In this document: positions 1-41,262 of the stretch, piece by piece
Layout of the letters: the number at the start of each line of letters is the position of its first letter
Position numbering within the stretch: position 1 is the first letter of the stretch
Virus record (IMG/VR): IMGVR_UViG_3300031707_000049
Span: 1 to 42,673 of that record
DNA from: a virus
DNA length: 42,673 nt
Strand: one strand, 5' to 3'
Made by a program: the position numbers and the translations under genes
Notes under the pieces: generated by a model
Seen by the model: the letters and a program-made list of their open reading frames with translations, nothing else
What the model was told of the DNA's origin: nothing
Database searches by the model: none

Positions 1-60
1 CTTCAGCCTATTCAACTTAAGATGGTCGGGGCGGCGGGATTTGAACCCGCGACCTCTTGG
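1..60. repeat. att core, left copy (tRNA-Pro 3' half)
   Basis: This 60-bp block recurs without mismatch at 42508-42567. On the minus strand it holds the T arm, the acceptor strand CGCCCCG and the encoded CCA of a tRNA-Pro. With the following bases TCCAAG and TTTGGG it reaches the anticodon loop (UGG anticodon). No matching 5' half lies next to it, so this is a partial tRNA carried as an integration core, not a working tRNA. Phages that integrate in tRNA genes commonly carry such a 3' half to restore the host gene. The exact terminal repeat also fits a circular genome of 42,507 bp. The base after TTTGGG is T here and A in the right copy. Confidence 0.88.
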
Positions 61-131
61 ACCCAAACATAGATAGTGTTTTGATGTACCTTGAGCCTCT
101 TGGCTATTTGTCTCGGTGTAAGTAGTCGCAT
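12..131 (-). CDS. N-terminal half of split HTH_17 protein, fused to att core
   Basis: This 39-aa ORF starts with MRLL and continues TPRQIAKRLKVHQNTIYVW, the first two helices of an HTH_17/MerR-like excisionase-type DNA-binding domain. After that the frame runs into the att core, where tRNA sequence is translated as VQEVAGSNPAAPTILS before TGA at 12-14. The expected continuation of the family (W, two variable residues, G, R, I/L, P) is missing here but is found in frame at 944-1059 on the other strand. Its promoter lies at 168-197, giving a leader of about 30 nt with only a weak ribosome site (GGA). As written the protein is probably truncated and inactive as an HTH_17 factor. In the inverted arrangement of 68-937 it would be complete at 61 aa. 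Confidence 0.7.
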   Translation of the reverse strand: MRLLTPRQIAKRLKVHQNTIYVWVQEVAGSNPAAPTILS

Positions 132-167: not shown

Positions 168-197
168 ATAATATCACAGTCTGTCACCGTTTGTCAA
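168..197 (-). promoter_or_regulatory. leftward sigma70-type promoter
   Basis: On the minus strand TTGACA (197-192) is followed after 18 nt by TATTAT (173-168). It points to the small ORF at 131-12 and, across the att core in a circular molecule, to the integrase gene at 42417-41263. The integrase has no convincing promoter of its own between 42418 and 42507. The -35 box lies inside the left arm of the operator at 189-227. Confidence 0.7.
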
Positions 198-227
198 GAA
201 GTTTGGCGATATGTTTACTTGACAAAC
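189..227. promoter_or_regulatory. inverted-repeat operator between divergent promoters
   Basis: GTTTGTCAAG (189-198) and CTTGACAAAC (218-227) form a perfect 10-bp inverted repeat with 19 nt between the arms. Each arm contains the -35 box of one of two divergent promoters. A dimeric regulator bound here would block both. The nearest candidate is the HTH/zinc-ribbon protein encoded from 279. Confidence 0.65.
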
Positions 228-248
228 AGTCACGGGTTCTGGCATAAT
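219..248 (+). promoter_or_regulatory. rightward promoter of the regulator gene
   Basis: TTGACA (219-224) is followed by 18 nt and CATAAT (243-248). Transcription would begin near 255, about 25 nt before the ATG at 279. The -35 box overlaps the right arm of the operator, which suggests autoregulation. Confidence 0.68.
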
Positions 249-278
249 TGCTGCAAATCGTGAAGGATTGTTAAAGAA

Positions 279-785
279 ATGACGCCAAAAGAGCATCAGA
301 AAAATCGCGTTGAAGGTGTAAGAAAGGCCATTAACGCGGGGTATTCTCAGGCTGGCATTGCTCGTGTGATAGGCGCATCCCGTACTAATTTGGCCTCGAT
401 TGTTTCTCGTTACGCCCCGTACAGCAAATACGGGGAGCGTCTTGACACATGGCTTCGCGAACGTGGCTTTTGGCCTGACGAGCCTGCGGCACAGTCCGTG
501 GCCACTAACCCCGCCCCGATGTTCCGGGACAGTCATCCGAAGGCCGCACAGCGCCGGCGTGAGCGAGTGCCGTACTTAACGGATCAGTGTCCGAAGTGCG
601 GTGACCTCACGGTTGATCCCGCCGAGGGCGCGCAGCGCTGCATGATGTGTGGCGCGGACCTGTGGGTCGAGTGTTCGCATTGCGGCGAGGGCAATGAGTT
701 CTACCGCGCGACATGCTCAAACCCGAAATGCCGCAGGTCGCTGAGGCCGGCCACGCCGGAACCCGAGAAGCCGATGGAGTTCTAA
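279..785 (+). CDS. HTH / double zinc-ribbon regulator (repressor-like)
   Basis: The 168-aa protein has an N-terminal helix-turn-helix (about residues 15-40, GYSQAGIARVIGASRTNL), then a short linker with WLRERGFW. Its C-terminal part has three paired-cysteine motifs (CPKCG, CMMCG, CSHCG) and a final CSNPKC, which look like two zinc ribbons. It lies inside the putative invertible segment, directly downstream of a promoter whose -35 box sits in an inverted-repeat operator. Position and fold suggest the phage's lysogeny regulator acting on the divergent promoters. That role is inferred, since I recognise no named repressor family. The ATG at 279 follows AAGGATTGTTAAAGAA, a loosely spaced ribosome site. 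The segment inverts as a unit, so this gene would stay intact in both orientations. Confidence 0.72.
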   Translation: MTPKEHQKNRVEGVRKAINAGYSQAGIARVIGASRTNLASIVSRYAPYSKYGERLDTWLRERGFWPDEPAAQSVATNPAPMFRDSHPKAAQRRRERVPYLTDQCPKCGDLTVDPAEGAQRCMMCGADLWVECSHCGEGNEFYRATCSNPKCRRSLRPATPEPEKPMEF

Positions 786-805
786 CCCTGAACGTTCATT
801 CAGTC

Positions 806-834
806 TTGACAGGCCGCGCAAGGTGTGGTAAAAT
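806..834 (+). promoter_or_regulatory. outward promoter of the early region
   Basis: TTGACA (806-811), a 17-nt spacer and TAAAAT (829-834) form a near-consensus sigma70 promoter. The predicted start near 841 nearly coincides with the last window base of the right-end inverted copy (839). Here it drives 880-1059 and then the early operon. If 68-937 were inverted it would face the att core and the integrase. Unlike the promoters at 168-248 and 41032-41060, its -35 box is followed by GGC, not AAC. Confidence 0.75.
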
Positions 835-838
835 CCGA

Positions 839-943
839 AAAGAGAGCAATACCATTGCTAACCAGTATTCGGCAAAGCAATGGCGGTACATTGTAACTTG
901 GCCGCGCCCATAGACTTAAGTGGCCTCCCGGAATCGCTTTGGG
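839..943 (+). repeat. 105-bp sequence with inverted copy at the right end
   Basis: Identical to the reverse complement of 42569-42673. It starts at the predicted transcription start of the promoter at 806-834 and ends with TTTGGG, the presumed crossover motif. Bases CCATTGCT and AGCAATGG within it (852-881) form an 8-bp hairpin. At 944 the sequence leaves the right-end copy (TACATCG here; ACCAAG, the tRNA half, there). Confidence 0.92.
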
Positions 944-1059
944 TACATCGTGGACGGATTCCAGTGGTCCAAGCGGGCAAGGGCTGCAAGATGAAATTTG
1001 ACTGGGACGCGGTTCTCGCGCGGCTCAGTATGAACGGTACTACAAACGCATCTAACTAA
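880..1059 (+). CDS. C-terminal half of split HTH_17 protein behind an unrelated N-terminus
   Basis: This 59-aa ORF begins MAVHCNLAAPIDLSGLPESLW, which matches no family I know. It then changes at the crossover motif to VHRGRIPVVQAGKGCKMKFD and ends with WDAVLARL plus a short tail. The second part is the wing and C-terminal helix of an HTH_17 domain and is the in-frame continuation of the ORF half at 131-68. No good ribosome site precedes ATG 880; an internal ATG at 991 is another possible start. It lies just downstream of the 806-834 promoter and just upstream of the early operon. I read it as a recombinant product in this orientation, not an intact ancestral gene. Confidence 0.6.
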   Translation: MAVHCNLAAPIDLSGLPESLWVHRGRIPVVQAGKGCKMKFDWDAVLARLSMNGTTNASN

Positions 1060-1077
1060 TTCAGAAAGGGCGACGTG

Positions 1078-2079
1078 ATGGGAAACGAGGTAGGGAACCC
1101 CAATGCGGAAACTGAGCCCGCGAACGCTCAGCCATTTGAACTCGCGTACATCCTGAAGTCCGTCAACGCGGACATGACATCCTATAACGGGTTTGTCTGG
1201 CCGGCTGAGGGTCCGGTGGAGGCACCGGACTGGAACGCCCAACCTGAATGCGGCGGCGGGCTGCACGGTTGGTTGTGGGGGCAGGGTGATTTTTCGCTTG
1301 CGGTGCCGAACGCGCGGTGGCTCATAGCAAGCATTAACAAAGCAGATTGCATAGACCTATCCGGCAAGATAAAGGTTGCGCGCGCGTGGGTCATTTTCTG
1401 CGGAGATCGGTTCGGGGCAACGTTTGAGTTGTTGCGGCTCCGGGAAGAACACCTGTTATGCGCCTCCGTTCAAAATGAAAAAGAATTTGTTCAGGGCGAC
1501 TCCGGTGCGGCGACCGTGAAGGGCAACTACGGTGCGGCGACCGTTCAGGGCAACTACGGTGCGGCGACCGTGAAGGGCAACTACGGTGCGGCGACCGTTC
1601 AGGGCAACTACGGTGCGGCGACCGTTCAGGGCAACTGCGGTGCGGCGACCGTTCAGGGCAACTGCGATGCGGCGACCGTGAAGGGCAACTGCGGTGCGGC
1701 GACCGTGAAGGGCTACTGCGGTGCGGCGACCGTGAAGGGCAACTACGGTGCGGCGACCGTTCAGGGCAACTACGGTGCGGCGACCGTTCAGGGCAACTAC
1801 GGTGCGGCGACCGTTCAGGGCAACTACGGTGCGGCGACCGTGAAGGGCGACTACGGCGCGGCGACCGTGAAGGGCAACGGACTTTCGACAGTTTTTGGGG
1901 CACACGGACAGGTTTCGGGCGGGGCCGGGTCCGCCCTCGTGCTCACATGGTTTCTCGATGGCAGTTCCGTTCGCGCAGTGGTTGCGCACGTTGGCGAAGA
2001 CGGGATCAAACCGGACAGTTGGTATCGCCTTAACGACGACCATGAATTCGTGGAGGTCTCCGCCGATGCGCAATCCTGA
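1078..2079 (+). CDS. DUF7666-like protein with 14 nine-residue repeats
   Basis: The 333-aa protein has an N-terminal region (about 15-125) with GGGLHGWLWG and a later WLIASINKADCIDLSGKIK stretch, resembling the DUF7666-type domain of phage proteins that carry similar repeats. Residues 143-268 are 14 copies of the unit GAATVKGNY, with K/Q and Y/C alternation, encoded by 27-bp DNA repeats at 1504-1881. Such regular G-x-A repeats probably form a beta-solenoid. The C-terminal 65 residues are unrelated to the repeat. ATG 1078 is chosen over GTG 1075 because AAAGGG (1065-1070) is better spaced. Function is unknown; as the first full gene of the early operon it may act on the host early in infection. 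Confidence 0.75.
   Translation: MGNEVGNPNAETEPANAQPFELAYILKSVNADMTSYNGFVWPAEGPVEAPDWNAQPECGGGLHGWLWGQGDFSLAVPNARWLIASINKADCIDLSGKIKVARAWVIFCGDRFGATFELLRLREEHLLCASVQNEKEFVQGDSGAATVKGNYGAATVQGNYGAATVKGNYGAATVQGNYGAATVQGNCGAATVQGNCDAATVKGNCGAATVKGYCGAATVKGNYGAATVQGNYGAATVQGNYGAATVQGNYGAATVKGDYGAATVKGNGLSTVFGAHGQVSGGAGSALVLTWFLDGSSVRAVVAHVGEDGIKPDSWYRLNDDHEFVEVSADAQS
1504..1881 (+). repeat. 14 tandem 27-bp repeats
   Basis: The unit ggtgcggcgaccgtgaag plus nine further bases is repeated 14 times with a few substitutions. Each unit codes for nine residues, so gain or loss of units keeps the reading frame. There are no spacers, so it is not a CRISPR array. Confidence 0.95.
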
Positions 2080-2368
2080 GACACGTTACAGGGTCTACCA
2101 CGGGCGCATGGCCTTCGCGCGATGGCTGCTGGGGGGCAAATGCATGATCTGCGAGACAACGTTGTTTCTCCAGTTTCATCACCGGTTCGCGGAAGAGAAG
2201 TGTTTCGAGATCAGGAACTGTCTGCACGTGAGTCCCGAACGCCTAATTGCGGAGATTGCCAAGTGCGATCTCATGTGCATCGTTTGTCATGCCCGCTGGC
2301 ATGACATAGCCACGAAGGTTCGGACGTCAAACGGCACGTGGATTGAAGAGGCCGCGTTGACCTTCTGA
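2066..2368 (+). CDS. HNH endonuclease-like protein
   Basis: The 100-aa protein has C26-x2-C29, the pair HH at 38-39, the stretch EIAKCDLMCIVCH with C71-x2-C74-H75, and H79. This is the layout of small phage HNH nucleases, in which cysteine pairs bind structural zinc and the histidines form the active site. ATG 2066 has GGAGG at 2052-2056 with 9-nt spacing, and the gene overlaps the end of the preceding gene by 14 nt. Small HNH proteins may act as homing or packaging nucleases; which applies here cannot be told. It is far from the terminase genes, which argues mildly against packaging. Confidence 0.75.
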   Translation: MRNPETRYRVYHGRMAFARWLLGGKCMICETTLFLQFHHRFAEEKCFEIRNCLHVSPERLIAEIAKCDLMCIVCHARWHDIATKVRTSNGTWIEEAALTF

Positions 2369-2377
2369 AGGAGGAAC

Positions 2378-2545
2378 ATGGAAAGCAAACGTGATCGAGC
2401 GCGAGCTTACGAGGCGGCCCGCAACGCCGTCATCAAAGCCGCGCGGGAATGGCGAGACAAGGCGAATCCGCCTACTAGGGACACCGATCTCGAGCTCATC
2501 GCCGGCGTTGACCACCTGAACTCACTGAGGAAGATCAACCAATGA
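2378..2545 (+). CDS. 55-aa protein, function unknown
   Basis: A small charged, helix-prone protein beginning MESKRDRARAYEAARNAVIK. The strong ribosome site AAGGAGG (2369-2373) precedes the ATG, and the TGA overlaps the start of the ParB-like gene (ATGA), so the two are probably translationally coupled. No family recognised. Confidence 0.7.
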   Translation: MESKRDRARAYEAARNAVIKAAREWRDKANPPTRDTDLELIAGVDHLNSLRKINQ

Positions 2546-3561
2546 CCAAACCCCCACTCGCACTCACGGGCAGCGCCGTCGCCGCGGAGCTCAAGTTCCA
2601 TCCCGTCTGCCTCATGTTCCCGAACATGAACTCATGGGACTTCAACGCCCTGGTCAGCGACATCATCCACAACGGCGTGCTGGAACCCGTCTGGCTCGAT
2701 AAGGACTACCTGGTCATTGACGGCCGGCATCGCGTCAAAGCCTGTGTGAAACTGAAGAGCATGGTCCCGTACCGCATCATCGAGGAAGGCGACTCGATCC
2801 TCTTGGCCATCTCCGCCAACCTCGCCAGACGTCATCTGACCGTGGGTCAACGGGCCATGATCGCCGCGAAAATCGCAAACATGCCCAAGGGAATGCCAAC
2901 TGCGAATAATGCCCCAATCGTTGCCCAAGCTTCTAAAGACCTATCTGATATTGCTGGACTTACAACCGAAAAAGAGAATATCGCGCAAGCCGATGCTGCA
3001 AATATGTTGAAAATATCCCGGAGTTCGGTACAGCGCGCCCACGTTCTTCACAGCTACGGTACGCCCGAGCTTGCCCGGATGGTCGAGGAGGGGAAAGTCC
3101 ATCTGACTTCGGCGTCCGAGATCGCCCGGTTGTCCCTCGAGCGGCAGGCCGAGATAGTGGCGAAGGGTCCCAAGGGGGTCGAGGAAGCCGCCGCTCATCA
3201 TCGCAAGATGGTTCACGCCGAGAATCTGGCCGTTGGCAGGCAGGAAAGGATGAACGCTGAACCCGAGGATGGCGAGGCAATACGGGCCCGGCGCGAGGAG
3301 CGACGCCGCAATGAGATCGAACGCGAACTCTCCCGACCCCAAACAGTCCCATCACGGTCCCCGGCACCGACTGCGCCGCAACCCAGTCACATGGCGCCGG
3401 GGACCGCCCTTCGTATCCCGCTTGGATACGCGTTTATAGATGCGTCCGCTCGCCTCTTGCCCTGGTCCGTGGCGAAATTGCTCGAGGCGGTGAAACACAC
3501 GGCTAAACACCGCGACACCAGCACGTATATGGTCGTCCGGTTATACGGAGAACGCGTATGA
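2542..3561 (+). CDS. ParB-like nuclease/partition-domain protein
   Basis: The 339-aa protein has an N-terminal ParB/sulfiredoxin-fold domain with the signature DGRHR at 60-64 and a following NLARRHLTVGQRAMIA stretch. A ParB/KorB-type helix-turn-helix follows, near residues 147-190 (LKISRSSVQRAHVLHSYG, then a segment resembling the usual 'G.v..A..iA' pattern). The C-terminal third is charged. No ParA ATPase lies nearby, so a plasmid-like partition role is not supported. Phages often use lone ParB-like proteins in DNA metabolism or regulation. Its start overlaps the preceding gene and its stop overlaps the next, both by ATGA. Confidence 0.8.
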   Translation: MTKPPLALTGSAVAAELKFHPVCLMFPNMNSWDFNALVSDIIHNGVLEPVWLDKDYLVIDGRHRVKACVKLKSMVPYRIIEEGDSILLAISANLARRHLTVGQRAMIAAKIANMPKGMPTANNAPIVAQASKDLSDIAGLTTEKENIAQADAANMLKISRSSVQRAHVLHSYGTPELARMVEEGKVHLTSASEIARLSLERQAEIVAKGPKGVEEAAAHHRKMVHAENLAVGRQERMNAEPEDGEAIRARREERRRNEIERELSRPQTVPSRSPAPTAPQPSHMAPGTALRIPLGYAFIDASARLLPWSVAKLLEAVKHTAKHRDTSTYMVVRLYGERV

Positions 3562-3857
3562 CATGGCATGAATCCGAACGGTTGTACACCCTGAACGAGG
3601 CGGCCACCTTCGCCCGCGGGCGCCGGAGACCCCACCTCTCAACGATCTGGCGCTGGGCCACGAAAGGCATCGGCCGGCGTGGACGGAAAGTCTTCCTCGA
3701 GACCATCCGCACGAACTCGGGGTGGCTCACGTCGAAGGAAGCGGTCCACAGATTCGAGGCCGCCGCCGCCAAAGCGATGCAGGCCGACGCGCCCCTGGCA
3801 TCGAAAACGACCCCCGCGGCCGCCGTCGAGTACCTGCAACAGGAAGGCATCGCATGA
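3558..3857 (+). CDS. DUF1580-like HTH protein
   Basis: The 99-aa protein reads LYTLNEAATFARGRRRPHLS, then STIWRWATKGIGRRGRKVFLE and later WLTSKEAVHRFEAA. It resembles DUF1580, a small DNA-binding family I know mainly from planctomycetes: 'L.EAA......R..H.STI.RW...G..G..LE..R......T..EA..RF'. It probably binds DNA through the winged HTH. This is one of two hints of a planctomycete host. ATGA overlaps join it to both neighbours. Confidence 0.75.
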   Translation: MTWHESERLYTLNEAATFARGRRRPHLSTIWRWATKGIGRRGRKVFLETIRTNSGWLTSKEAVHRFEAAAAKAMQADAPLASKTTPAAAVEYLQQEGIA

Positions 3858-4003
3858 CGAGCTTGGCTGAGTATTACTTGCGCGGTCCTCAGTGGGCCAA
3901 CTTGCGCCGCACGGTCATCGAGGCCGAACGTAAATCCCAAAAACGACGAGGTCTTGGCAAGCATGAGACGCTTAGTAGAAATACAGTCTCCCGTCGCGTC
4001 TGA
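3854..4003 (+). CDS. 49-aa basic protein, function unknown
   Basis: Starts MTSLAEYYLRGPQWANLRRT and is rich in Lys and Arg. The ATG overlaps the TGA of the DUF1580 gene. Its 3' end overlaps the next small ORF by 41 nt in another frame. No family recognised. The longer in-frame ORF from 3722 lies inside the DUF1580 gene and is less likely. Confidence 0.5.
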   Translation: MTSLAEYYLRGPQWANLRRTVIEAERKSQKRRGLGKHETLSRNTVSRRV

Positions 4004-4124
4004 CCACGGCGTTCTCTGCGAAGCGGCGCAATACGACTGCCCGATGTGTGGACACATCTACTACAGTTTGCCGGACGAGTGGCAGGAATGCCCCAAGTGC
4101 GCGCGGCGTGGATTGGAAACATGA
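3963..4124 (+). CDS. 53-aa zinc-ribbon protein
   Basis: Has CPMCGHIYY and, 16 residues on, CPKCARRG: a four-cysteine, rubredoxin-like zinc ribbon. It overlaps the previous ORF by 41 nt and the next by ATGA. A CGAGG sequence upstream is a possible ribosome site. Function unknown; phages often carry such minimal zinc ribbons in early operons. Confidence 0.6.
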   Translation: MRRLVEIQSPVASDHGVLCEAAQYDCPMCGHIYYSLPDEWQECPKCARRGLET

Positions 4125-4228
4125 TTGACGTGCTGAGCGCGATAGTCACGCTCGGAGTGGTGATTTACCTATGGAAAAGGAGAAAACAACAATGCCAATT
4201 AAAGGACTGTCCGAAAAGAGACGAATAA
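4121..4228 (+). CDS. 35-aa single-span membrane peptide
   Basis: Reads MIDVLSAIVTLGVVIYLWKR followed by a charged tail. Residues 4-18 form one hydrophobic span with a positive flank, so the C-terminus probably lies in the cytoplasm. It overlaps the zinc-ribbon ORF by ATGA and the next gene by 37 nt in another frame. Function unknown; it sits in an early operon, not the lysis cassette. Confidence 0.5.
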   Translation: MIDVLSAIVTLGVVIYLWKRRKQQCQLKDCPKRDE

Positions 4229-5196
4229 CCAGGGGCGGATTCCTCCGGCTCGGGGAAATGGTCGTCTCGCCCAAGACGGGAAAAGAGCACCCGGCAAAAT
4301 CCGACCATTTCATCCCGGACTTCGAGAACCCGGATCTCGTACCCCTGTTTCACAAATTGTACGGCGAGAAGCCTACTCGCGTCTCGATGTCATTCGCCAG
4401 CGACAATCTCGATCAGGTCTTTCCTCAATACTACAAGTGTTACGGAGCATCGTCCGGGCTAAAATGCAAGGGCGACGGGGAACGCGCCAGCAGGGCTATC
4501 AAAACAGAGGACTCAGTCGAATTCGTCGAGGTGGATTGTATTGGTCCCGAGGAGTGCGATTTCGGCAAGGAAAACGGTTGCGACAAGATCGCGAGCTTGC
4601 AGTTCTTCATCAAGGGGTTGCCTGGGATTCAGGTGTTCCAGTGCAACACCGGGTCGTACAACTCCATCGTGAATCTGAATAGCGCCCTTGAGATCCTTCA
4701 ACGACTTAGGGCGGGGAAGAGTATCGTCGGCGTGTGGCTCACCCTCGTACTGTCGCCCCAGGAGGCCCAGCACAAAGGCAAGAAGGTCCAGATCTACACA
4801 CTATCCCTCGACATCCCAGTCTCATTCGACGAGGCCCAACGGTTGACATCGCAGTTCGAGGAACCGGCCGCATTGCCGGCACCGTCTGATGCCCGGGATC
4901 CGCTACTGCGTCCGCCGAACGGTTTCGCGCCGGATCCCGAGAAGCGCCATGACGAACCCAAGACCAAACCGACGAAACCCGAGACGAAACCAACGAATGG
5001 CGATCCCCTCGCCGAGGTCAAAAAAATCATGGCCGAGGTCGGTTGGACGAACGCCGATATGAAGGTCCTCCTGAAAAAGTACTACGGCGGCAGAACCTCG
5101 CGCAAACTCACTGAGAAAGAACTCGCCGATCTGCCCGAGGCAGTCCGGGCGGCGGCGTCCACGTCGAAAACAAAACCAACGGAGGATGGATGGTGA
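4192..5196 (+). CDS. phiC31 gp3-like protein (RDF-like family)
   Basis: The 334-aa protein matches the family of Streptomyces phage phiC31 gp3, often annotated 'hydrolase or metal-binding protein'. Seen features: SDHFIPDFENP, the block VFPQYYKCYG, CKGDGERA, a cysteine pair (CIGPEEC), and TGSYNSIVNLNSALEILQRL. In phiC31, gp3 is the recombination directionality factor of a serine integrase. The integrase here is a tyrosine recombinase, so the same job cannot be assumed; many relatives sit in replication/recombination operons. The C-terminal 100 residues are a charged linker and a small helical tail. ATG 4192 is preferred over 4171 because AAGGAG lies 9 nt upstream. Confidence 0.75.
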   Translation: MPIKGLSEKRRITRGGFLRLGEMVVSPKTGKEHPAKSDHFIPDFENPDLVPLFHKLYGEKPTRVSMSFASDNLDQVFPQYYKCYGASSGLKCKGDGERASRAIKTEDSVEFVEVDCIGPEECDFGKENGCDKIASLQFFIKGLPGIQVFQCNTGSYNSIVNLNSALEILQRLRAGKSIVGVWLTLVLSPQEAQHKGKKVQIYTLSLDIPVSFDEAQRLTSQFEEPAALPAPSDARDPLLRPPNGFAPDPEKRHDEPKTKPTKPETKPTNGDPLAEVKKIMAEVGWTNADMKVLLKKYYGGRTSRKLTEKELADLPEAVRAAASTSKTKPTEDGW

Positions 5197-6962
5197 TGAT
5201 TACACGAATCGAGATTGAAGATTTTCGGTGCATCAAGCACCTGAAACTGGATCCGGTCCCGTCCTGCTTGGTACTCGCCGGCAGAAATGGGCAGGGGAAA
5301 TCGTCCGTGCTCGACGCGGTCCGGATGGCCATGTTCGGTTACTGCGGACGCACAGGCAAAACCGGTCAAAACGCGCGCGACCAGATCAGGCTGGGAGCCG
5401 GGGAGGCCCGGATCGCCGTGGCGTTCGGTGACCTCATTGCCGTCGCTGTCATCAAACAAAAGGGGAACGAGTTCATGGTCATGAACATGGACGGCGAGAT
5501 CATGCAGGACATCATGGATCGCGCGGCGATGTGGCGGACACTCGGTGTCTCAATGGAGAACGCCGCGGTCGCCGCCATGCCCGACATGGTTCTGACCGGG
5601 GGCGAGTTCGGCGACATACTGACTCGCCGGCTCGCACCAAAGATCACGTCTGAACTGGTGAAAAACCATGCCGGCGACAACTGGACTTGGCTATCTGAGT
5701 TCGCGGCAAAACAACGCATCACGTTCACGTCACTGGCGAACCTGGCAAGCCTCGGCGATCTCGCCTATGCCCGCCGCACAGACGTGAATCGCGAACTGAA
5801 ATCCGCCCGAAAACGGATCGAGGACATGGGGGATGTGTTCGCCCCGAAATCCAAGACCGGCCAGGATCTCGCCATCTCAGACACTGACCGCATCAAGGCC
5901 GATGTGGCTCGCCTGATGCGCGAACGCGAATCCCTGCTCGAGGAACGGGGCCGCGTCGCCGCCGTCACGCCCCAGGTGGACGTAACGGCTCTCAGAAAAG
6001 AACTTGATAACCTAGTCGCGCGGCTCGGCGAGATTGGCGACGAAATCGGCGGTCTGGCCGAGGACAAAGAACTGTCCGAGCGATACGGTGATGTGTCGCG
6101 CATCCAGGGGGAAATCGAGGCGGCCACGAACCAGCTCACTTTTTTCAAGCAGGGTGTCTGCCCCACCTGCGGCCGCAAGATGACCAAATCCGATGACCGC
6201 GTAACCGCACTGGCCGAGAAACTCTCGTCCGCCCAGGGTGCCCTTGGTCTGGCAACGACCGCACGCGAGACCGCTCACGACGAAGTGCAGCGGCGCCGGG
6301 TCCTCGAAGGGGAGTTCCATGACGTCCAGGGCCGCATCAAGATCGTCAATCATCAACTCGACCAAACAAACAACGCCGGCGGTTCCCAGCGGCCCTTGGC
6401 CGAGATTGACGCGGACTTGTTGGCCAAGGCGGAAACGGTGGCGCGCGGCCAGGCTATACTTCGCGACCTCGCGCGGCTCACAGAAAAGACTGATCTCGAT
6501 GATTTCGTACATTCTCTCGAGTCCGAGGTCGCGCATCTCGATTGGGCCGTCGAACAATTCCGCAACGGCGCGCTCGCCAAGTTCCTGATCCGCGACATGG
6601 CCACGCCGTTTCTTGAACGGTGCAACGTCGCCCTCTCTGCGGTCGGTAAATCCATCGAGCTCGTCATTGACGGCAAACGCGTCTACGTCATGTTGCGCCT
6701 CAACGAGACCGATGCGTTCCCGTTCGAGATGTGTTCCCGCGGCGAACAGATGTTGGCCAAGGCGGTGATCGCCGCCGATTTTGGGGCGGACAGCTTCGTA
6801 TTGTTGGACGATCTGAACGACCTCGATTTCGAGAACCGGGACAATATCGTGAAGGCCCTCCAGTCCTGCCCCAGTCTGATCTGCGCAGTGGCCGACCAGA
6901 ACGATTCCCTCAATCTCGGCGAAACCGTATTCCTCAACGATGGTGAAATTACCGAATTCTAA
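5196..6962 (+). CDS. Rad50/SMC-like ATPase
   Basis: The 588-aa protein begins MITRIEIEDFRCIKHL, typical of RecF/Rad50-type ATPases. Walker A is GRNGQGKS at 29-36. Central coiled-coil stretches are broken by a zinc-hook-like CPTCGRK near 322. Near 512 an ABC-signature-like CSRGEQML is followed near 534 by FVLLDDLND, the Walker B region. Rad50 proteins bind and tether DNA ends and work with an Mre11 nuclease; no Mre11-like gene is visible here. Possible nuclease partners in the operon are the VRR-NUC and HNH proteins. Start ATG 5196 (TGATG overlap) fits the family N-terminus; ATG 5190 is nearer to the GGAGG. Confidence 0.85.
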   Translation: MITRIEIEDFRCIKHLKLDPVPSCLVLAGRNGQGKSSVLDAVRMAMFGYCGRTGKTGQNARDQIRLGAGEARIAVAFGDLIAVAVIKQKGNEFMVMNMDGEIMQDIMDRAAMWRTLGVSMENAAVAAMPDMVLTGGEFGDILTRRLAPKITSELVKNHAGDNWTWLSEFAAKQRITFTSLANLASLGDLAYARRTDVNRELKSARKRIEDMGDVFAPKSKTGQDLAISDTDRIKADVARLMRERESLLEERGRVAAVTPQVDVTALRKELDNLVARLGEIGDEIGGLAEDKELSERYGDVSRIQGEIEAATNQLTFFKQGVCPTCGRKMTKSDDRVTALAEKLSSAQGALGLATTARETAHDEVQRRRVLEGEFHDVQGRIKIVNHQLDQTNNAGGSQRPLAEIDADLLAKAETVARGQAILRDLARLTEKTDLDDFVHSLESEVAHLDWAVEQFRNGALAKFLIRDMATPFLERCNVALSAVGKSIELVIDGKRVYVMLRLNETDAFPFEMCSRGEQMLAKAVIAADFGADSFVLLDDLNDLDFENRDNIVKALQSCPSLICAVADQNDSLNLGETVFLNDGEITEF

Positions 6963-6977
6963 AGGAGAACGCGAACC

Positions 6978-7355
6978 ATGAAACGCAAGCAAGAAATCCC
7001 AAAAACGAAAGAAGTCGCTCTCACGATGTACCTCAAATGTGCGTTGGCCGACCACGAAAAAATAGATCGCGGACGCGACCTGGCCCATCTCTACGGCGAG
7101 AAGCAACAACTCGAGGCCGACATGAAGGCAACCAGATCGCAATACCAATCCCGCATTGACGGTGTTACTGGCAAGATCTCAATGCTCTCGGACACGATCC
7201 GCGATGCGGCGGAGTTTCGGGATGTCCAATGTGTCCAAGTATTCGACTGGGCAAACAAAGAGGTCTACGTCCGGCGCCCCGATACTGACGAGATCGTTGA
7301 ATCGCGCCAAATGCGCCAGGAAGAACTGCAAACGGAGTTTCCAATTCCAGCGTGA
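6978..7355 (+). CDS. 125-aa coiled-coil protein, function unknown
   Basis: Starts MKRKQEIPKTKEVALTMYLK. Residues 25-75 look like a coiled coil (GEKQQLEADMKATRSQYQ), followed by a beta-rich C-terminus (VQVFDWANKEVYVRRPDTDE). A strong AAAGGAG precedes the ATG. It lies between the Rad50-like ATPase and the helicase and overlaps the latter by GTGA, which suggests a shared DNA-metabolism role. No named family recognised. Confidence 0.7.
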   Translation: MKRKQEIPKTKEVALTMYLKCALADHEKIDRGRDLAHLYGEKQQLEADMKATRSQYQSRIDGVTGKISMLSDTIRDAAEFRDVQCVQVFDWANKEVYVRRPDTDEIVESRQMRQEELQTEFPIPA

Positions 7356-8791
7356 TTCTCCGCGACTACCAACAGCGAGGCGTTGACCAGATCCGCGCCC
7401 GATTCGCCGCCGGCGTCCAACGGGTCTTGTACACGGCCCCAACAGGCTCGGGTAAAACCGAACTGTTCGTCTACATCGCCCGCGGCGCCGCGGCGAAGGG
7501 CAAACGCATCTGCATCCTGGTCCATCGCAGGGAGCTCGTCTTGCAGACCTGTGCGCGGCTTGACTGTCCCCACGGCGTCATCGCCGCCGGATTCCCCGCC
7601 GATCCGCGTCAGATCATCCAGGTCGCCAGCGTCCAGACCCTGATCAACCGTCTCGGGCAATACCCCCAATTTGACCTCATTGTCGTTGATGAATGCCATC
7701 ACTGCCGCGCGATGTCTTACGAAACCATTCTCGCGATGCACCCGGCCGCCAAGGTCCTGGGTGTTACGGCGACGCCGTGCCGTCTCGACGGCCGCGGCCT
7801 TGGCGATCTGTTCCAGGAACTGATTCACGGGCCGTCCGTGCGCTCCCTGATTGACGCCGGGTATCTCGCGGAGCCGGTCGTGTACGCGCCCTCCACGATA
7901 AACACCTCGGGCGTTCACAAGGCCCACGGCGATTACGTCACCCGTGAACTGGCCGCCGTCGCGGACCGGCCCACAATCACCGGCGACGCCATTACGCACT
8001 ATCGCCGGTACGCGAACCGGCTGCCGGCAATCGCGTTCTGCGTCTCCGTCGAGCACGCGCGCCACATCGCCGCGGACTTCCAAGGCGCGGGGTACATTGC
8101 CCGGTGCGTGGACGGCGGCACACCCCAGGCCGAACGCGACGACGCCATTGCCGCCCTCGGGTCCGGGCGAATCCACGTCCTCACGTCATGCGACCTCATA
8201 TCCGAAGGCGTGGACGTGCCCGTTGTCGCCTGCGGGATCATGCTCAGGCCGACTCAATCAACCGCCCTGGCGATCCAACAGACCGGACGCTGCCTGCGTG
8301 TGGCGCCGGGGAAACGCCGGGCTATCATCCTCGACCATGCCGGGAACACGCTCCGGCACGGCCTGCCTGACGATGACCGCGACTGGACCCTCGAACACGG
8401 CCATGCGCGCCGCGGGGTGTCCGATGGCGATGACAAGGTCTCCGTCCGCATCTGTCCCCGCTGTTTCTACGCGCACGCGACCGGTCCCGTCTGTCCGGGG
8501 TGCGGATTCGAGTATCCCGTCGAGGGCCGCGACGTGGCCGAGCGCGACGGCGATCTCGTCCTCCAAACCCGCGAAGAGAAGCTCGCCGAGCAGGCCGCCG
8601 CAACTGATTTTCAGTCCTTGGTCGAAATTGAGGTGAAACGCCGGTACAAACCCGGCTGGGCACTCCACGTCTGGCGCACCAGGGGGAACCCCATCACGTT
8701 CCGCGAGTACAAGGAAATCGAGAAACGCCGAGGCTACAAACCAGGCTGGGCCTGGATACGAAGCAAAATGGAATTGAGTAACGCTACCTAA
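7352..8791 (+). CDS. superfamily 2 DEAD/DEAH-type helicase
   Basis: The 479-aa protein has motif I APTGSGKTE (about 28-36), motif II DECH in VVDECHHC (near 111), motif III-like VTATP, and motif VI QQTGRCLRVAPGKRR (near 308). A C-terminal zinc ribbon follows (CPRCFYAHATGPVCPGCG, near 367). This is the standard phage UvsW/RecG-like SF2 helicase layout. It should unwind or remodel branched or duplex DNA in phage replication or recombination. The C-terminus carries the motif YKPGWA twice. The start is GTG, overlapping the previous stop by GTGA. Confidence 0.88.
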   Translation: MILRDYQQRGVDQIRARFAAGVQRVLYTAPTGSGKTELFVYIARGAAAKGKRICILVHRRELVLQTCARLDCPHGVIAAGFPADPRQIIQVASVQTLINRLGQYPQFDLIVVDECHHCRAMSYETILAMHPAAKVLGVTATPCRLDGRGLGDLFQELIHGPSVRSLIDAGYLAEPVVYAPSTINTSGVHKAHGDYVTRELAAVADRPTITGDAITHYRRYANRLPAIAFCVSVEHARHIAADFQGAGYIARCVDGGTPQAERDDAIAALGSGRIHVLTSCDLISEGVDVPVVACGIMLRPTQSTALAIQQTGRCLRVAPGKRRAIILDHAGNTLRHGLPDDDRDWTLEHGHARRGVSDGDDKVSVRICPRCFYAHATGPVCPGCGFEYPVEGRDVAERDGDLVLQTREEKLAEQAAATDFQSLVEIEVKRRYKPGWALHVWRTRGNPITFREYKEIEKRRGYKPGWAWIRSKMELSNAT

Positions 8792-8810
8792 CCTAAGAAA
8801 GGATCAACAC

Positions 8811-9152
8811 ATGCTCACGAAACAAGATCTGCTCGACAAAATCGAGTACTACTCCGCGTTGCAGAAACGCAATCTCGACCAGACTGTCACCTTCCCCCGC
8901 GAGGAGAACGACAGTGTGCCGGATGAAATCGCGGATTTCCATCAGGCAATGACGGACGTTTTCGAGGCCAAGTTCGAGATCGAAATGTTCAAGATGATGA
9001 CCGAGATCGTCAATGAATCCAAGGATGCCCCCGAAGCCGTCTCACGGTGTTGCATCTACCTGAGCAATCTCGCTAACGTAACCGATTACCCGATTCAGGT
9101 GTTTGCCGAGAAGGCACTCCGCAACGCGTACCCAATCATCGCAATGCTGTAA
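8811..9152 (+). CDS. 113-aa protein, function unknown
   Basis: An acidic, largely helical protein starting MLTKQDLLDKIEYYSALQKR. AAAGGA lies 8 nt upstream of the ATG. It sits between the helicase and the methyltransferase, with 19 nt and 3 nt of spacing. No motif or family recognised. Confidence 0.7.
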   Translation: MLTKQDLLDKIEYYSALQKRNLDQTVTFPREENDSVPDEIADFHQAMTDVFEAKFEIEMFKMMTEIVNESKDAPEAVSRCCIYLSNLANVTDYPIQVFAEKALRNAYPIIAML

Positions 9153-9155
9153 CCC

Positions 9156-10001
9156 ATGCGTGAAATTCGGGCCATAGACGTGTGTGCTGGCGGCGGCGGC
9201 TGGGCGGTAGCTGCACGAGGCACGCCTATCCGTATTGTCGCGGCATTTGACCACGACGAGGACTGTTTGGCTACGTACTCGTTCAATCATCCAGGCGTCG
9301 AATCCATTCAGTGTGACGTTACCACGCATGATTTCTCCAAGTGGGCCGGTATTGACCTCATCTTGGGCGGAATACCGTGCGAAGAGGTTTCGTTGGCTCG
9401 TAACCTAGTTCCACTGGCGGCATCGGATGAGGCACGCATAGCCGCGCTGGTTGACAGGTGCGTCGGTCTGCCTTCCGAGTTAAACGCCCAATGGTGGTGC
9501 TACGAGGACGTTCCTCAAATCAGACGGTTCTTGCCACTCTTCACCCCGTATTTTGAACTGGATTCGCAGTACTTCTCGGCGCAGCGGCGAAAACGAATCT
9601 ATATCGGCAACCTGCCTAAGCCAGTGGAACAATCAAACGATACTCGGCTCTCGCAGCACCTGAGACCGGGACCGTTCCGTATAGGCCAAAAAGTCCTTCG
9701 ATCACGACCGTGCCGCGCAAAGACATACACTGCTACGACGTTCTACGACTGGGATCCTGCTGCAAAATCGCCCACGGTAATAGGTCTGTCCAGTCGCCAT
9801 GACAACTACGCCGCCGTCGGGTTTCCCGGTGGTTATCGCCAACTGCAATGGCAGGAACTCGCATCCTTACAGGGATTTCCTGCCGATTACACTTTCATTG
9901 GCTCGCCAACCTCAACATCGAAGATGATTAGCCAAGCCGTACAAATCGACACTGCACGAGCTATTCTCTCTCGTTTCATCGAGGATCTCTCCCATGCGTG
10001 A
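9156..10001 (+). CDS. DNA cytosine-C5 methyltransferase
   Basis: The 281-aa protein has motif I (DVCAGGGG at 8-15), motif IV with catalytic Cys75 in GGIPCEEVS, motif VI as YEDV with Glu117, where ENV is usual, and motif VIII QRRKR (143-147). Near the end it has a motif X-like SQAVQIDTARAI. It is short for the family, and the target-recognition region is compact. It should transfer a methyl group from SAM to C5 of cytosine. There is no partner restriction enzyme beside it except possibly the overlapping VRR-NUC gene, so it is more likely a solitary phage methylase for escape from host restriction or for regulation. Confidence 0.82.
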   Translation: MREIRAIDVCAGGGGWAVAARGTPIRIVAAFDHDEDCLATYSFNHPGVESIQCDVTTHDFSKWAGIDLILGGIPCEEVSLARNLVPLAASDEARIAALVDRCVGLPSELNAQWWCYEDVPQIRRFLPLFTPYFELDSQYFSAQRRKRIYIGNLPKPVEQSNDTRLSQHLRPGPFRIGQKVLRSRPCRAKTYTATTFYDWDPAAKSPTVIGLSSRHDNYAAVGFPGGYRQLQWQELASLQGFPADYTFIGSPTSTSKMISQAVQIDTARAILSRFIEDLSHA

Positions 10002-10296
10002 ATCGTCGCTCCTGAAACGCATCCAGATTGCCGCGTCGCGCGCCGGGGCCCGCCTGTTCCGCAACAACGTGGGGTTCGACGCCGAACGCCGGGTCCATTA
10101 CGGCCTGTGCCGGGGGTCCTCGGACCTCATCGGATGGACTCCGATCGAGATCCGCGAGGAGCACATAGGCTCCGTAGTGGCCGTGTTCACCGCCGTCGAG
10201 TGCAAATCAAAACGGGGCCGGTTAACCGAAGAGCAACAGCGATTCCTCGATGCAGTCCGCACCGCCGGCGGTATCGCCCGAGAGGAACGAGAATGA
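9994..10296 (+). CDS. VRR-NUC domain nuclease
   Basis: The 100-aa protein spans a full VRR-NUC fold. It has the N-terminal 'R..G....RNN.G' block (RAGARLFRNNVG), GSSDLIG with the active-site Asp, VECKSKRGRLTEEQQRFL with the E-x-K pair, and a closing 'V..AGGIA' block. It is a PD-(D/E)xK nuclease; phage members are often structure-specific (Holliday-junction-like) nucleases. It overlaps the methyltransferase by 8 nt and the next ORF by ATGA. Its last 27 bases recur at 10578-10604. Confidence 0.85.
   Translation: MRESSLLKRIQIAASRAGARLFRNNVGFDAERRVHYGLCRGSSDLIGWTPIEIREEHIGSVVAVFTAVECKSKRGRLTEEQQRFLDAVRTAGGIAREERE
10270..10296 (+). repeat. 27-bp direct repeat, copy 1
   Basis: Identical to 10578-10604. 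It encodes the C-terminal residues GIAREERE of the VRR-NUC protein and contains the ribosome site GAGG and the ATGA overlap of the next gene. Confidence 0.95.
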
Positions 10297-10604
10297 TTGA
10301 CTGGTCGCGCTTCAACTGGGAGATTCATGAGGGCTCGGTGCTGTTGCGTGTTGGAGGACTGGTTAGGGCCGAGATCAGCATCAGTGGGGGGGCTGTTTTG
10401 GCTCCGTTATGGCATCTAGATGAACGTGAATTTGTCTACCAACAGGCGCGTGCGATTTGGAACTGGATGGAAAGAAAGAGAGGTAGTCATGGCAAAACAT
10501 GCGAACAAGATCAACAAACGGAAGTATGCTGCGAGGAAAACCTCGAACCCGACAAAACGGAAGTCGTGAATATCCTTGGTATCGCCCGAGAGGAACGAGA
10601 ATGA
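10293..10604 (+). CDS. 103-aa protein, function unknown
   Basis: Starts MIDWSRFNWEIHEGSVLLRV at an ATGA overlap, after GAGGAACGAGA. The first 65 residues look like a small phage protein; the rest is hydrophilic. It ends with the same IAREERE as the VRR-NUC protein because of the 27-bp repeat. A 26-codon ORF with its own ribosome site lies inside its 3' part in another frame, so the true C-terminus is uncertain. Confidence 0.6.
   Translation: MIDWSRFNWEIHEGSVLLRVGGLVRAEISISGGAVLAPLWHLDEREFVYQQARAIWNWMERKRGSHGKTCEQDQQTEVCCEENLEPDKTEVVNILGIAREERE
10489..10569 (+). CDS. possible 26-aa basic peptide
   Basis: Reads MAKHANKINKRKYAARKTSN plus PTKRKS, very rich in Lys and Arg. GAGAGG lies 5 nt upstream of the ATG. 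It overlaps the 10293-10604 ORF in another frame, so only one of the two may be real over this stretch. No function can be assigned. Confidence 0.3.
   Translation: MAKHANKINKRKYAARKTSNPTKRKS
10578..10604 (+). repeat. 27-bp direct repeat, copy 2
   Basis: Identical to 10270-10296. It again supplies a GIAREERE protein end, a ribosome site and an ATGA junction, here to the MazG-like gene. Confidence 0.95.
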
Positions 10605-10918
10605 CTCTAAACGTTATCAGCGAGAACGCAATGACTACAGCGAACAAACATGGATTTGGAGATACTACTCCAGGCGAGTGGTTTGCAAATATTCATAGCG
10701 AGGTGTCCGAGGCGTGGGAATGCTGGCGCAGTCACCAAGACGTTACACGTGTTCGCAGCGACAATAAACCGGAAGGATTACCATCAGAACTAGCCGACAT
10801 TATTATCCGAGTTTGCGATGTAGCTGCTCGGTTATGTATTGATTTAGATGTTGAGGTAGAACGGAAAATGGTCTACAACGCCACGCGAAATTTCAGGCAT
10901 GGCGATAAACGTGCTTGA
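10601..10918 (+). CDS. MazG-like nucleotide pyrophosphohydrolase
   Basis: The 105-aa protein has the metal-binding helix pattern HSEVSEAWECW and then ELADIIIRVCDVAARLCIDL, followed by KMVYNATRNFRHGDK. This matches small MazG-like/dUTPase-like phage proteins that hydrolyse non-canonical or excess NTPs to NMP and pyrophosphate. Phage MazG has been linked to nucleotide-pool and (p)ppGpp control, which remains a possibility only. ATG 10601 follows GAGGAACGAGA and overlaps the previous TGA. The region is lower in GC than its neighbours. Confidence 0.78.
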   Translation: MTLNVISENAMTTANKHGFGDTTPGEWFANIHSEVSEAWECWRSHQDVTRVRSDNKPEGLPSELADIIIRVCDVAARLCIDLDVEVERKMVYNATRNFRHGDKRA

Positions 10919-10927
10919 GTTCACCCC

Positions 10928-11176
10928 ATGACCCAGTACGCGATTCTTCCACCAGCGTGCGAACGCGAGAAACACATCATCGCCTATATCGATCTTGAAC
11001 TGAAACACGAAACCGCGCTCCGGGTGCTCCTCGCTCTCAAGGAGGATAGCGAGGGGTCCGGACCGCGGCGCGGCCTGCTTCGCGACCACGAGATCGACGC
11101 CATCGAAACCCTTCACTGCTGGTCCGCTACCGCCGGTGGCGAGATACCCTTACAAGGACCACCATGCCTACTATAG
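10928..11176 (+). CDS. 82-aa protein, function unknown
   Basis: Starts MTQYAILPPACEREKHIIAY. The middle is helical, and the last 13 residues overlap the primase-helicase gene in another frame. No clear ribosome site. No family recognised; GC content and codon use match the flanking replication genes. Confidence 0.6.
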   Translation: MTQYAILPPACEREKHIIAYIDLELKHETALRVLLALKEDSEGSGPRRGLLRDHEIDAIETLHCWSATAGGEIPLQGPPCLL

Positions 11177-13335
11177 CCGACATTCGCGCCCAACTCGACG
11201 CCGTCAAAGGTTCCGAATCCTCGTTCACGGCCCGATGCCCCGCACACGACGACCGCACCGCCAGTCTCTCGGCCAAACTCGGCGGGTCCGGTCAAATCCT
11301 TCTCCATTGCCATGCCGGTTGCACTTTCCCCGAGATCATCGCCGCCCTCGGCTACACCGGCAAGGACTTCGCCAAACCCAAACTCGCCGGAGACATCGTC
11401 GCCACTTACGACTACCGCGAGGCCGATGGCACTCTCGTGTTCCAGAAATGCCGCCTCCAACCCAAGTCATTCTTCATTCGTCACCCCGACCCTCACAATC
11501 CCGGCGAATGGATTAACGGACTCAACGGTGTCAGGTCGCGCCCTCTCTACCGGCTCCCCGACCTCATCCCGAAACTCGAACATCACAGAAAGGTCGTCGT
11601 TTGCGAGGGCGAGAAAGACGCCGACCGGCTCTGGTCTCTCGGCCTGGCTGCCACGACGGATTTCGGGGGGGCCGACACCCGTGGCGTCAAGTGGCGCAAA
11701 GAATACTCGGACCTTCTAGCTGACGCCGGCCACGTCGTTGTCCTGCCCGACAACGATCCGCCGGGCCGGGCCCGGGCCCGCGCCATCTGCCTCATGACCC
11801 TGAACTCCGTCTGTCTCACCCTGCCCGACCTGCCTGATCATGGCGACGTATCCGACTGGCTCGATTCCGGTCACACCATCGAGGAATTCCGCGTGCTGGC
11901 CGCCGAGGCCATAGCCGAGCCGCCGCCGATTCCCGAACTCGAGGTTGCCCCGGCCGCCCCGCCCGTCGTCGTCGCCACGGATTCTTCCGTCCAAAAACCC
12001 ATCGTCATAAACAATCATCCGTTGCGGATCGCCGAGGCGTTCCTCGCCCATCACTACGTCCGCGACAATCAACTCCACCTGCGCTGGCACGCCGGCGAAT
12101 GGTTCCGGTTCCTCTGCACCCACTATGAGGTCCTGCCCGTCGCCGTCCTGCGCGCCCAACTCTGGCGGTTCTGCGACGGGCTGCGCATCGCCAACAGCGA
12201 TTCCCTCAAAGTCTCTCCCCGGATCGTCAGCGAAGTCCTCGACGGTCTTCCCTCGCGCAACCTCATCGTCGAGGGGGACCGCCCACAGTGGATCACCGCG
12301 CCGCCTACACCCATGCCCATCCACGAGATTGCCGTCTGCCAAAATGGCATTCTACACATACCCGACCGGACCCTCATCCCCTCGACGCCCGAACTCTTCA
12401 CCACAACCGCGCTGCCGTTCCCGTACAACCCCAATGCCCCGCAACCCGTCCGCTGGCTCCAGTTCCTCAACGAACTCTGGCCCGGCGACGAGGAATCCCA
12501 GATCGCCCTACGCGACTGGTTCGGATACTGCCTCACGCCCGACACCCGGCAACACAAAATCCTCCTGATCGTTGGTCCCAAACGCGCCGGTAAATCCACC
12601 ATCGGACGCCTGCTATCTGAACTCATCGGACACACAGCCGTCTGCAACCCCACACTCGCCTCGCTCGCCCTGCCATTCGGCATCGAACCACTGCTCGACA
12701 AGCATCTCGCTATCATCACCGACGCCCGCCTATCGGGCCGTACCGACGGCGGCGTCGTCGTCGAACGCCTCCTCTCCATCTCCGGCGAGGACGGCCAGAC
12801 CATTGACCGCAAATTCAACTCCTCTTTCAACACCAAACTCAACGTCCGTTTCACCATCCTTACAAACGAACTGCCTCACCTCGAAGACTCCTCCGGCACC
12901 ATCGCCTCGCGGTTCATCACTCTCATCCTCACTAAATCCTGGATCGACAACGAAGACCACGCACTCACCGACACACTACTCGCCGAACTCCCAGGCATTC
13001 TCAACTGGGCACTCACAGGATTCGACTCACTCATCGAACACGGACGACTCTCTCAGCCACAAGCCTCGCGCGACATCGTCCAGGAACTCGCCGATTTCGG
13101 CTCGCCCGTCCAAGCCTTCATCCGTGAAAGATGCGTACTCAAACCCAGCGCTCTCGCCGAATGCAACGCCCTATACGACGCCTTCCGCGAATGGGCTAAA
13201 GAAATCGGCTTCCAAAATGTCCGCTCTAAACTGTGGTTTGCACGTGACTTACGTGCCGTTATACCTACTCTCAAAGTCCGCAATCTAGGCACAGACGAAC
13301 GCACCAGATGCTACGAAGGTATCCAAACAGTATGA
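11164..13335 (+). CDS. primase-helicase (TOPRIM + SF3/D5-like ATPase)
   Basis: The 723-aa protein has a zinc finger (C25, H28, C49, C53) typical of phage primases. A TOPRIM domain follows, with the conserved Glu in CEGEKDAD (near 148) and PDNDPPGR (near 194). A long linker leads to a P4/D5-type SF3 helicase with Walker A GPKRAGKST (near 469) and LAIITDARL near 519 as the Walker B region. A D5_N-like region and a C-terminal wHTH-like end flank it. It should make RNA primers and unwind DNA at the phage fork, acting alone as in P4 alpha-type proteins. AAGGA lies 5 nt upstream of ATG. The repeat-rich 13338-13553 directly downstream may be its origin. Confidence 0.88.
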   Translation: MPTIADIRAQLDAVKGSESSFTARCPAHDDRTASLSAKLGGSGQILLHCHAGCTFPEIIAALGYTGKDFAKPKLAGDIVATYDYREADGTLVFQKCRLQPKSFFIRHPDPHNPGEWINGLNGVRSRPLYRLPDLIPKLEHHRKVVVCEGEKDADRLWSLGLAATTDFGGADTRGVKWRKEYSDLLADAGHVVVLPDNDPPGRARARAICLMTLNSVCLTLPDLPDHGDVSDWLDSGHTIEEFRVLAAEAIAEPPPIPELEVAPAAPPVVVATDSSVQKPIVINNHPLRIAEAFLAHHYVRDNQLHLRWHAGEWFRFLCTHYEVLPVAVLRAQLWRFCDGLRIANSDSLKVSPRIVSEVLDGLPSRNLIVEGDRPQWITAPPTPMPIHEIAVCQNGILHIPDRTLIPSTPELFTTTALPFPYNPNAPQPVRWLQFLNELWPGDEESQIALRDWFGYCLTPDTRQHKILLIVGPKRAGKSTIGRLLSELIGHTAVCNPTLASLALPFGIEPLLDKHLAIITDARLSGRTDGGVVVERLLSISGEDGQTIDRKFNSSFNTKLNVRFTILTNELPHLEDSSGTIASRFITLILTKSWIDNEDHALTDTLLAELPGILNWALTGFDSLIEHGRLSQPQASRDIVQELADFGSPVQAFIRERCVLKPSALAECNALYDAFREWAKEIGFQNVRSKLWFARDLRAVIPTLKVRNLGTDERTRCYEGIQTV

Positions 13336-15248: not shown

Positions 15249-15752
15249 TTACTCACGCCCTTCGGAGAGTGCGGCGAGAGCTCGCGCAGATAGGTCTGGG
15301 TTGTCAGCAGAGACGGGGATTTGCATCGAGATTGAACGAGACGACGAGACTGGACCAAACCCTGCGCGGTCGAGGAGCGCGCGGGCGGCTTCGAGGCGGA
15401 GGCGTAATTGAGGTGCAGGGCCGCGAACGATGCCAGAGGCTATGTTAATGAGGATCTCGACGGCTTGGGCGGAGGTCTCGACGAGCAGTTGCCGGGTGTT
15501 CTGAGGTCCTGCGAGGGCAAGCGTGGTGATGTGTTTCGAGACGGCGGCCTGCTTCTCTCGGCAGAGGTCGGCAAGATAGTTCTGGGCGAGTGTTGACATG
15601 AGTAGTTTTTCGAGGGTTGACTTTGAGTAGTGGTACTGTTTGCAGACGGTTTCACGTGGGATGCCCGTTGCGAGTGCGTTGAGGATTTCACTGTGGCGGG
15701 GTGAGAGTTTCTTTGGTTTCCAGGGTTTTGGGAGATAGGGATGTGGTTTCAC
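15249..15752 (-). CDS. HTH protein, possible small terminase
   Basis: The 167-aa protein has an N-terminal helix-turn-helix (about 18-50: LSPRHSEILNALATG, then ETVCKQYHYSKSTLEKLL). Long helices follow, with LRLRLEAARALLDRAGFGP, a wording I associate with DNA-binding small terminase-like phage proteins. It is the last gene of the late operon and overlaps the giant gene by 4 nt. Small terminases usually lie next to the large subunit, but the large one here is about 21 kb away, so the call is tentative. A late transcription regulator is the alternative. Confidence 0.5.
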   Translation of the reverse strand: MKPHPYLPKPWKPKKLSPRHSEILNALATGIPRETVCKQYHYSKSTLEKLLMSTLAQNYLADLCREKQAAVSKHITTLALAGPQNTRQLLVETSAQAVEILINIASGIVRGPAPQLRLRLEAARALLDRAGFGPVSSSRSISMQIPVSADNPDLSARALAALSEGRE

Positions 15753-40869: not shown

Positions 40870-40985
40870 CGTTCTCCCTGGAGGTGGCACCCAGGGCGGG
40901 CCACACAGAGGCGCCGCCCCCACGTGCCAATGCGCGGGTAGGGTTTCGCGCAATTTCTCGGAGCCGCCAAACCGAGAACGAAAAG

Positions 40986-41017
40986 GGGCCGCCAGAACAT
41001 TCTCGATCTGACGGCCC
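40986..41017 (-). terminator. intrinsic terminator just after the late promoter
   Basis: On the minus strand GGGCCGTCAG (41017-41008) pairs with CTGGCGGCCC (40995-40986), a 10-bp stem with one G-U pair, followed by CTTTTCGTT. It begins about 8 nt after the predicted start of late transcription and lies between the promoter and the lysozyme gene. Confidence 0.65.
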
Positions 41018-41031
41018 TTCAAACCACAAGA

Positions 41032-41060: not shown

Positions 41061-41076
41061 GCGTCCTGTTGCGCTG

Positions 41077-41099: not shown

Positions 41100-41103
41100 A
41101 TCA

Positions 41104-41244: not shown

Positions 41245-41262
41245 TCCATTCACCTCCTTTCA

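Follow-up and report, generated by a model that had tools for sequence, protein, structure and literature searches.

The window, that is, the whole stretch of DNA analyzed here, is the 42,673-nt virus record IMGVR_UViG_3300031707_000049 from IMG/VR, derived from an uncultured bacterial virus; our analysis covered this one genome and used the contig sequence alone. Comparison of the contig ends showed that bases 1 to 67 recur at positions 42508 to 42574 with a single mismatch (61A versus 42568T) and that, directly after an att core, the exact reverse complement of positions 839 to 943 follows as positions 42569 to 42673. The two ends carry both orientations of an 870-bp segment (positions 68 to 937; here termed S): orientation A is found at the 5′ end of the contig through position 945, and the start of orientation B forms its 3′ end. 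Over the 105 bp present in both orientations, S is identical. When orientation B was rebuilt with a script, the last 166 bases of the contig were reproduced exactly. Three of the four junctions are present in the contig, namely, core/S (position 61), S/early region (938 to 944), and core/inverted S (42568), and from these we infer the fourth (inverted S/early region). Jointly with the whole of the explanation preferred below, we regard it as reasonably probable that the assembly drew on a mixed population and that the window represents a temperate-phage genome, circular and nearly complete. The features of the locus are the following.

13 to 21, no strand: CAACTTAAG, with a CTTAAG motif, proposed integrase arm site
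23 to 67, minus strand: att core in orientation A, tRNA-Pro 3′ half (overlap, 61 to 67, TTTGGGT on the minus strand)
62 to 131, minus strand: 5′ half of the HTH_17 gene, severed by the inversion in A
68 to 937, no strand: inverted segment S, identified by the reverse-complement match at the contig end and the rebuilding of B
168 to 197, minus strand: promoter-like site covered by an operator-like repeat (TTGACA-18-TATTAT; 11/12)
183 to 233, no strand: inverted operator-like repeat CTTGACAAACRGTSAC, copies at 198 to 183 (minus) and 218 to 233 (plus)
219 to 248, plus strand: promoter-like site of the repressor-like gene (TTGACA-18-CATAAT; 11/12)
279 to 785, plus strand: gene for a 168-aa repressor-like protein
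806 to 834, plus strand: promoter-like site without the operator repeat (TTGACA-17-TAAAAT; 11/12)
914 to 922, no strand: ACTTAAGTG, proposed integrase arm site
938 to 944, plus strand: second crossover site, TTTGGGT, within the HTH_17 gene
938 to 1059, plus strand: 3′ half of the HTH_17 gene
1078 to 13335, plus strand: early operon region (collagen-like protein, ParB-like, DUF1580, SbcC-like, helicase, methylase, and primase)
41263 to 42417, minus strand: tyrosine integrase gene
42498 to 42506, no strand: CACTTAAGT, proposed integrase arm site, one of the genome's CTTAAG sites
42530 to 42574, minus strand: att core in orientation B, tRNA-Pro 3′ half (overlap, 42568 to 42574, TTTGGGA)

The 45-bp att core matches a bacterial tRNA-Pro gene exactly (locus L005, with W at position 61) and is also matched by phage tRNA-Pro genes; the bacterial match, which is from Bacillota, was used solely for fixing the tRNA sequence, and no inference about the host was drawn from it. 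The loop of this tRNA reads TTTGGGA, as does the core overlap in B, and the stem CTTGG/CCAAG encloses the loop, so that the 7-bp overlap coincides with the anticodon loop, which fits a tyrosine integrase. Cores of attP and attB lying over the anticodon loop have been described as common in mycobacteriophages (PMC10865867). The two endpoints of the inversion (61 to 67 and 938 to 944) have all seven bases in common in A, and the core in B differs at one of them. The crossover partner of attP is GTT TGG GTA, the V-W-V codons of the HTH_17 gene, inverted relative to attP; its likeness to the tRNA is confined to the overlap, with matches at 5 of the 10 flanking bases. Sites of the form TTTGGGW number 14 in the genome, 4 of them in the inverting orientation. 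The hexamer CTTAAG has four copies genome-wide, three of which are clustered in 98 bp in B, flanking the core on either side; the inversion to A takes the copy in ACTTAAGTG from ∼18 bp to ∼850 bp away from the core overlap. We propose these motifs as candidate arm sites of the integrase, their clustering around the core in B being as expected of such sites.

The initial annotation had held that inversion would rebuild an HTH_17 gene, and this is borne out: the two halves are in frame with each other only in B, where they form an intact gene for a 61-aa protein, MRLLTPRQIAKRLKVHQNTIYVWVHRGRIPVVQAGKGCKMKFDWDAVLARLSMNGTTNASN. This protein scores 37.2 bits against HTH_17 and 37.6 bits against TIGR01764 (excise family), both above the curated cut-offs. 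As fused in A, the N-terminal half falls below the cut-off in both families (23.7 and 22 bits, respectively) and the C-terminal half has no match in either Pfam or NCBIfam; the open reading frame nevertheless continues across the junction in both orientations. In B, the gene directly follows promoter 197-168 and is the first gene of the early operon. Going by family, the protein is probably a directionality factor (excisionase), although HTH_17 proteins are not all directionality factors.

The initial annotation named neither orientation as native. Judged by its sequence features, orientation B is the native form, and A is derived from it by recombination between attP and the TTTGGGT within the HTH_17 gene, because it is in B that the tRNA-Pro loop TTTGGGA, the intact HTH_17 gene, and the CTTAAG cluster around the core are restored. 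B runs from the repressor-like gene through the promoter and attP to the integrase, and its divergent early operon begins with the excisionase-like gene. The converse assignment, A as the native form, was considered and rejected, since it would entail a broken gene, an altered tRNA loop, and a split motif cluster.

The integrase (Phage_integrase, 54.4 bits; phrog_1, 1.4e-33) probably starts at position 42417, which has a good ribosome-binding site (AAAAAAAGGAGCCGCACTATG). Its catalytic-type residues R224, K251, H345, R348, H370, and Y379 (numbered from 42450) are shared, in an alignment, with the single distant viral relative (L004) recovered by an integrase search. Just 5′ of the ribosome-binding site is a perfect 10-bp hairpin, CCGGAATAAC-ATCC-GTTATTCCGG (42439 to 42462), which could be an operator or could act in RNA control of int translation. 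The 168-aa protein encoded within S has N-terminal helices and a zinc-ribbon-like C-terminal part with a DZR match below the cut-off; a structure model of low confidence (pLDDT, 52) has four N-terminal helices, and a PDB sequence search returned nothing useful. Its position suggests the role of a repressor. With regard to the other genes, the first large early gene (1078 to 2079) contains tandem 27-bp repeats (1489 to 1875) encoding units of the GAATV(Q/K)GNY type that match collagen-like phage tail families, despite the place of the gene in the early operon. The DUF1580 protein (3558 to 3857; 36.1 bits, above the cut-off) belongs to a family known from Planctomycetota, and it provides the sole hint of the host. 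The structural region has a 2279-aa open frame on the minus strand (15749 to 22588), and the portal and capsid of the phage are SU10-like.

Three promoter-like sites matching the sigma-70 consensus at 11 or more of 12 positions lie within bases 1 to 1075, compared with one in the other ∼41.4 kb under identical criteria; first-order Markov simulations of bases 1 to 1075 gave a mean of 0.006 sites, and 0 of 2000 contained three. As initially annotated, the minus-strand site 197-168 and the plus-strand site 806-834 face out of S, and in both the −10 element is preceded by TG. The third site, 219-248, had been overlooked; it also faces out of S, on the right side through the repressor-like gene, so that inversion changes its downstream partner as well, which is int in B and the early operon in A. 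Promoters 197-168 and 219-248 are back-to-back, pointing apart and not face-to-face, and the two operator-like copies overlie their −35 regions; these are the only exact copies of CTTGACAAACRGTSAC in the genome, and none is found at promoter 806-834. An imperfect inverted repeat (161 to 255) spans the operator-like region. A palindrome, TGAACGTTCA, at 789 to 798, just 5′ of promoter 806-834, might allow separate control of that promoter.

A scan of positions 40900 to 42673, which hold the integrase gene and its leader, recovered no promoter-like site; hence, once the genome is circular, transcription of the integrase gene would seem to require a promoter on the far side of the att core. Between promoters 197-168 and 806-834 and their targets, we found no convincing terminator in either orientation, nor any terminator-like site downstream of promoter 219-248 before position 945. 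The reading first proposed for the contig as written, in which 197-168 reads across the att core into the integrase and 806-834 into the early operon, accordingly agrees with the sequence of A. The predicted exchange follows directly as well: upon inversion, 197-168 would drive the rebuilt HTH_17 gene and the early operon, and 806-834 would drive the integrase. Outside this region, a strong promoter-like sequence (TTGACA-17-TATAAG) on the minus strand at 41060 to 41032, missed by the scan because its −10 element ends in G, precedes the endolysin and structural genes; its −35 context, CTTGACAAACGAGTAA, resembles CTTGACAAACRGTSAC, and the late region may come under the same repressor as the immunity region.

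We consider it probable that the inversion is a by-product of the integrase, leaving A nearly locked in lytic growth, rather than a programmed switch that can be reversed. In B, the native form, the operator-free promoter 806-834 would read through attP into int, the repressor-like gene and operators would lie beyond, and the divergent operator-controlled promoter 197-168 would start the early operon with the HTH_17 gene first; integration at attP would separate int from promoter 806-834. The phage integrase, as the presumed catalyst, would recombine attP with the TTTGGGT in the HTH_17 gene, 870 bp away and in the opposite orientation, inverting S to give A. There, the HTH_17 gene is in two pieces, and one of the proposed arm sites has moved off the core. 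The integrase would come under the repressor-controlled promoter 197-168, which would read through half of the HTH_17 gene into int, and the early operon would be transcribed from 806-834, together with read-through from the repressor's own promoter. Early genes would then be largely outside repressor control, and A would be incompletely repressible, poor at integrating, and poor at reverting, the last because the probable directionality factor is gone. Should this hold, it would be a natural case in which the off-target reaction of a phage integrase rewires, in a single step, the decision circuit of that very phage, and, if recurrent, the choice of recombination target would be a way of committing a temperate phage to lytic growth. 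For metagenomic phage contigs, it would mean that attP regions can mix rearranged forms, such that switch genes seem broken or missing.

The initial annotation had gone further and coupled the lysis/lysogeny choice to DNA orientation. A programmed switch of this type, with an attB mimic maintained in the HTH_17 gene and reversible inversion between a lytic-leaning A and a lysogeny-competent B, would account for the clean exchange of promoters and its neat logic, the coexistence of A and B in one sample, and the reading frame that is uninterrupted at the junction in either form. The promoter swap stands, but the coupling is open to doubt: A has lost the probable directionality factor and its attP is divided, and for this reason we read this form as a hard-to-reverse side product of the integrase. 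Moreover, with 4 of 14 TTTGGGW sites in the inverting orientation, one within 1 kb of attP is unremarkable by chance, the flanks of the secondary site match the tRNA at just half of the positions compared, and the searches described below recovered no relative with the module that could show conservation. We therefore hold a programmed switch to be rather unlikely. A variant in which the integrase picks either the host tRNA, leading to lysogeny, or an attB mimic kept in the phage's own excisionase gene, so that target choice itself decides between lysis and lysogeny, seems to us distinctly unlikely; internal recombination would in that case destroy attP and the excisionase gene and release the early genes from the repressor, e.g., when the host attB is occupied.

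Whole-genome amplification can yield inverted chimeras, and the identity at the breakpoints is short (the 6- to 7-base match CCCAAA/TTTGGG) with the B junction sitting at a contig end, so the junctions might be thought to be chimeras of amplification or assembly. This would, however, require two reciprocal A junctions plus a B junction at the att overlap, and the restoration in B of a gene, a tRNA loop, and a motif cluster argues that B is real. The base at position 61 is likewise not accounted for by a template switch within the match. At loop position 7, the B core has A, but both A junctions have T. Had the strands crossed at one point in the shared CCCAAA, one of these junctions would have kept the A allele, whereas a heteroduplex overlap produced by staggered cuts can resolve either way. 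The pattern thus argues for site-specific strand exchange and against a chimera, and we rate an artifact as very unlikely. The least probable account is an old, fixed rearrangement, with a temperate B strain and a stable, lytic-leaning A derivative coexisting without ongoing inversion. Form A, without an intact attP or HTH_17 gene, might persist as a separate lineage, and the overlap base does differ between the copies (61 versus 42568); yet the identity of the shared part of S in both orientations would make any split recent, and the integrase gene is seemingly intact in a lineage hardly able to use it.

Searches seeded with the integrase and repressor-like protein, the terminase, and the primase, and pattern searches with the HTH_17 codons, the junction, and the tRNA core in viral contigs, together with searches of plasmids and phages, recovered no related module, with the proviso that near-identical records may be absent from the collections searched; the primase search yielded 80 loci, and tblastn detected the immunity module in none of them. 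Desulfofustis phage OP947158 has a related terminase, portal, and capsid (32 to 33% identity) and no annotated integrase. Several characterized systems nonetheless bear comparison with the proposed by-product of the integrase. The Rin shufflon of bifidophages is a phage tyrosine-recombinase invertase (PMC6109161) and likewise involves a tyrosine recombinase, a short common crossover sequence, and inversion within a phage genome; there, however, a dedicated recombinase acts on repeated sites for receptor-binding proteins, whereas here the integrase, with its own att overlap, is implicated. In mycobacteriophage BPs, with its integration-dependent immunity, recombination by the integrase similarly alters a switch gene, both in what it encodes and in how it is expressed, but it does so by integration at an attP inside the repressor gene, whereas here the event would be an internal inversion that leaves the repressor ORF intact. 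Immunity of the BPs type was rejected for this locus, as the overlap in B (61 to 67) is outside the repressor-like ORF (220 to 726, both in coordinates of the rebuilt B).

In P2 and 186, the directionality factor is first on the lytic transcript and int is on the lysogenic one (PMC2951348, PMC7498355), and form B shares this layout, its early operon opening with a directionality-factor-like gene and its int lying on the lysogenic side. The lytic and lysogenic promoters of P2-like phages are face-to-face (PMC7498355), whereas here they are back-to-back, attP separates the repressor-like gene from int, and the repressor-like protein is of another type. A closer precedent for such a side reaction appears to be HK022, as far as it is described in the later accounts cited here: its Int inverts the DNA bounded by attP and a secondary site of the left operon, and Xis was reported to prevent the inversion (Dorgai, Oberto, Weisberg 1993, via PMC5495485, PMC6379469). 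As would be looked for in an event of the HK022 kind, the tyrosine integrase gene adjoins attP, the endpoints of the inversion are the attP overlap and an internal site with the same overlap, and both orientations occur, on three of the four junctions. The likeness extends to the setting, a phage tyrosine integrase acting on attP and an att-like site in the early operon. Going by those accounts, the present case differs in that the probable excisionase gene itself contains the second site, that the repressor gene, the operators, and the three promoters all travel with the inverted piece, and that a natural sample yields both forms.
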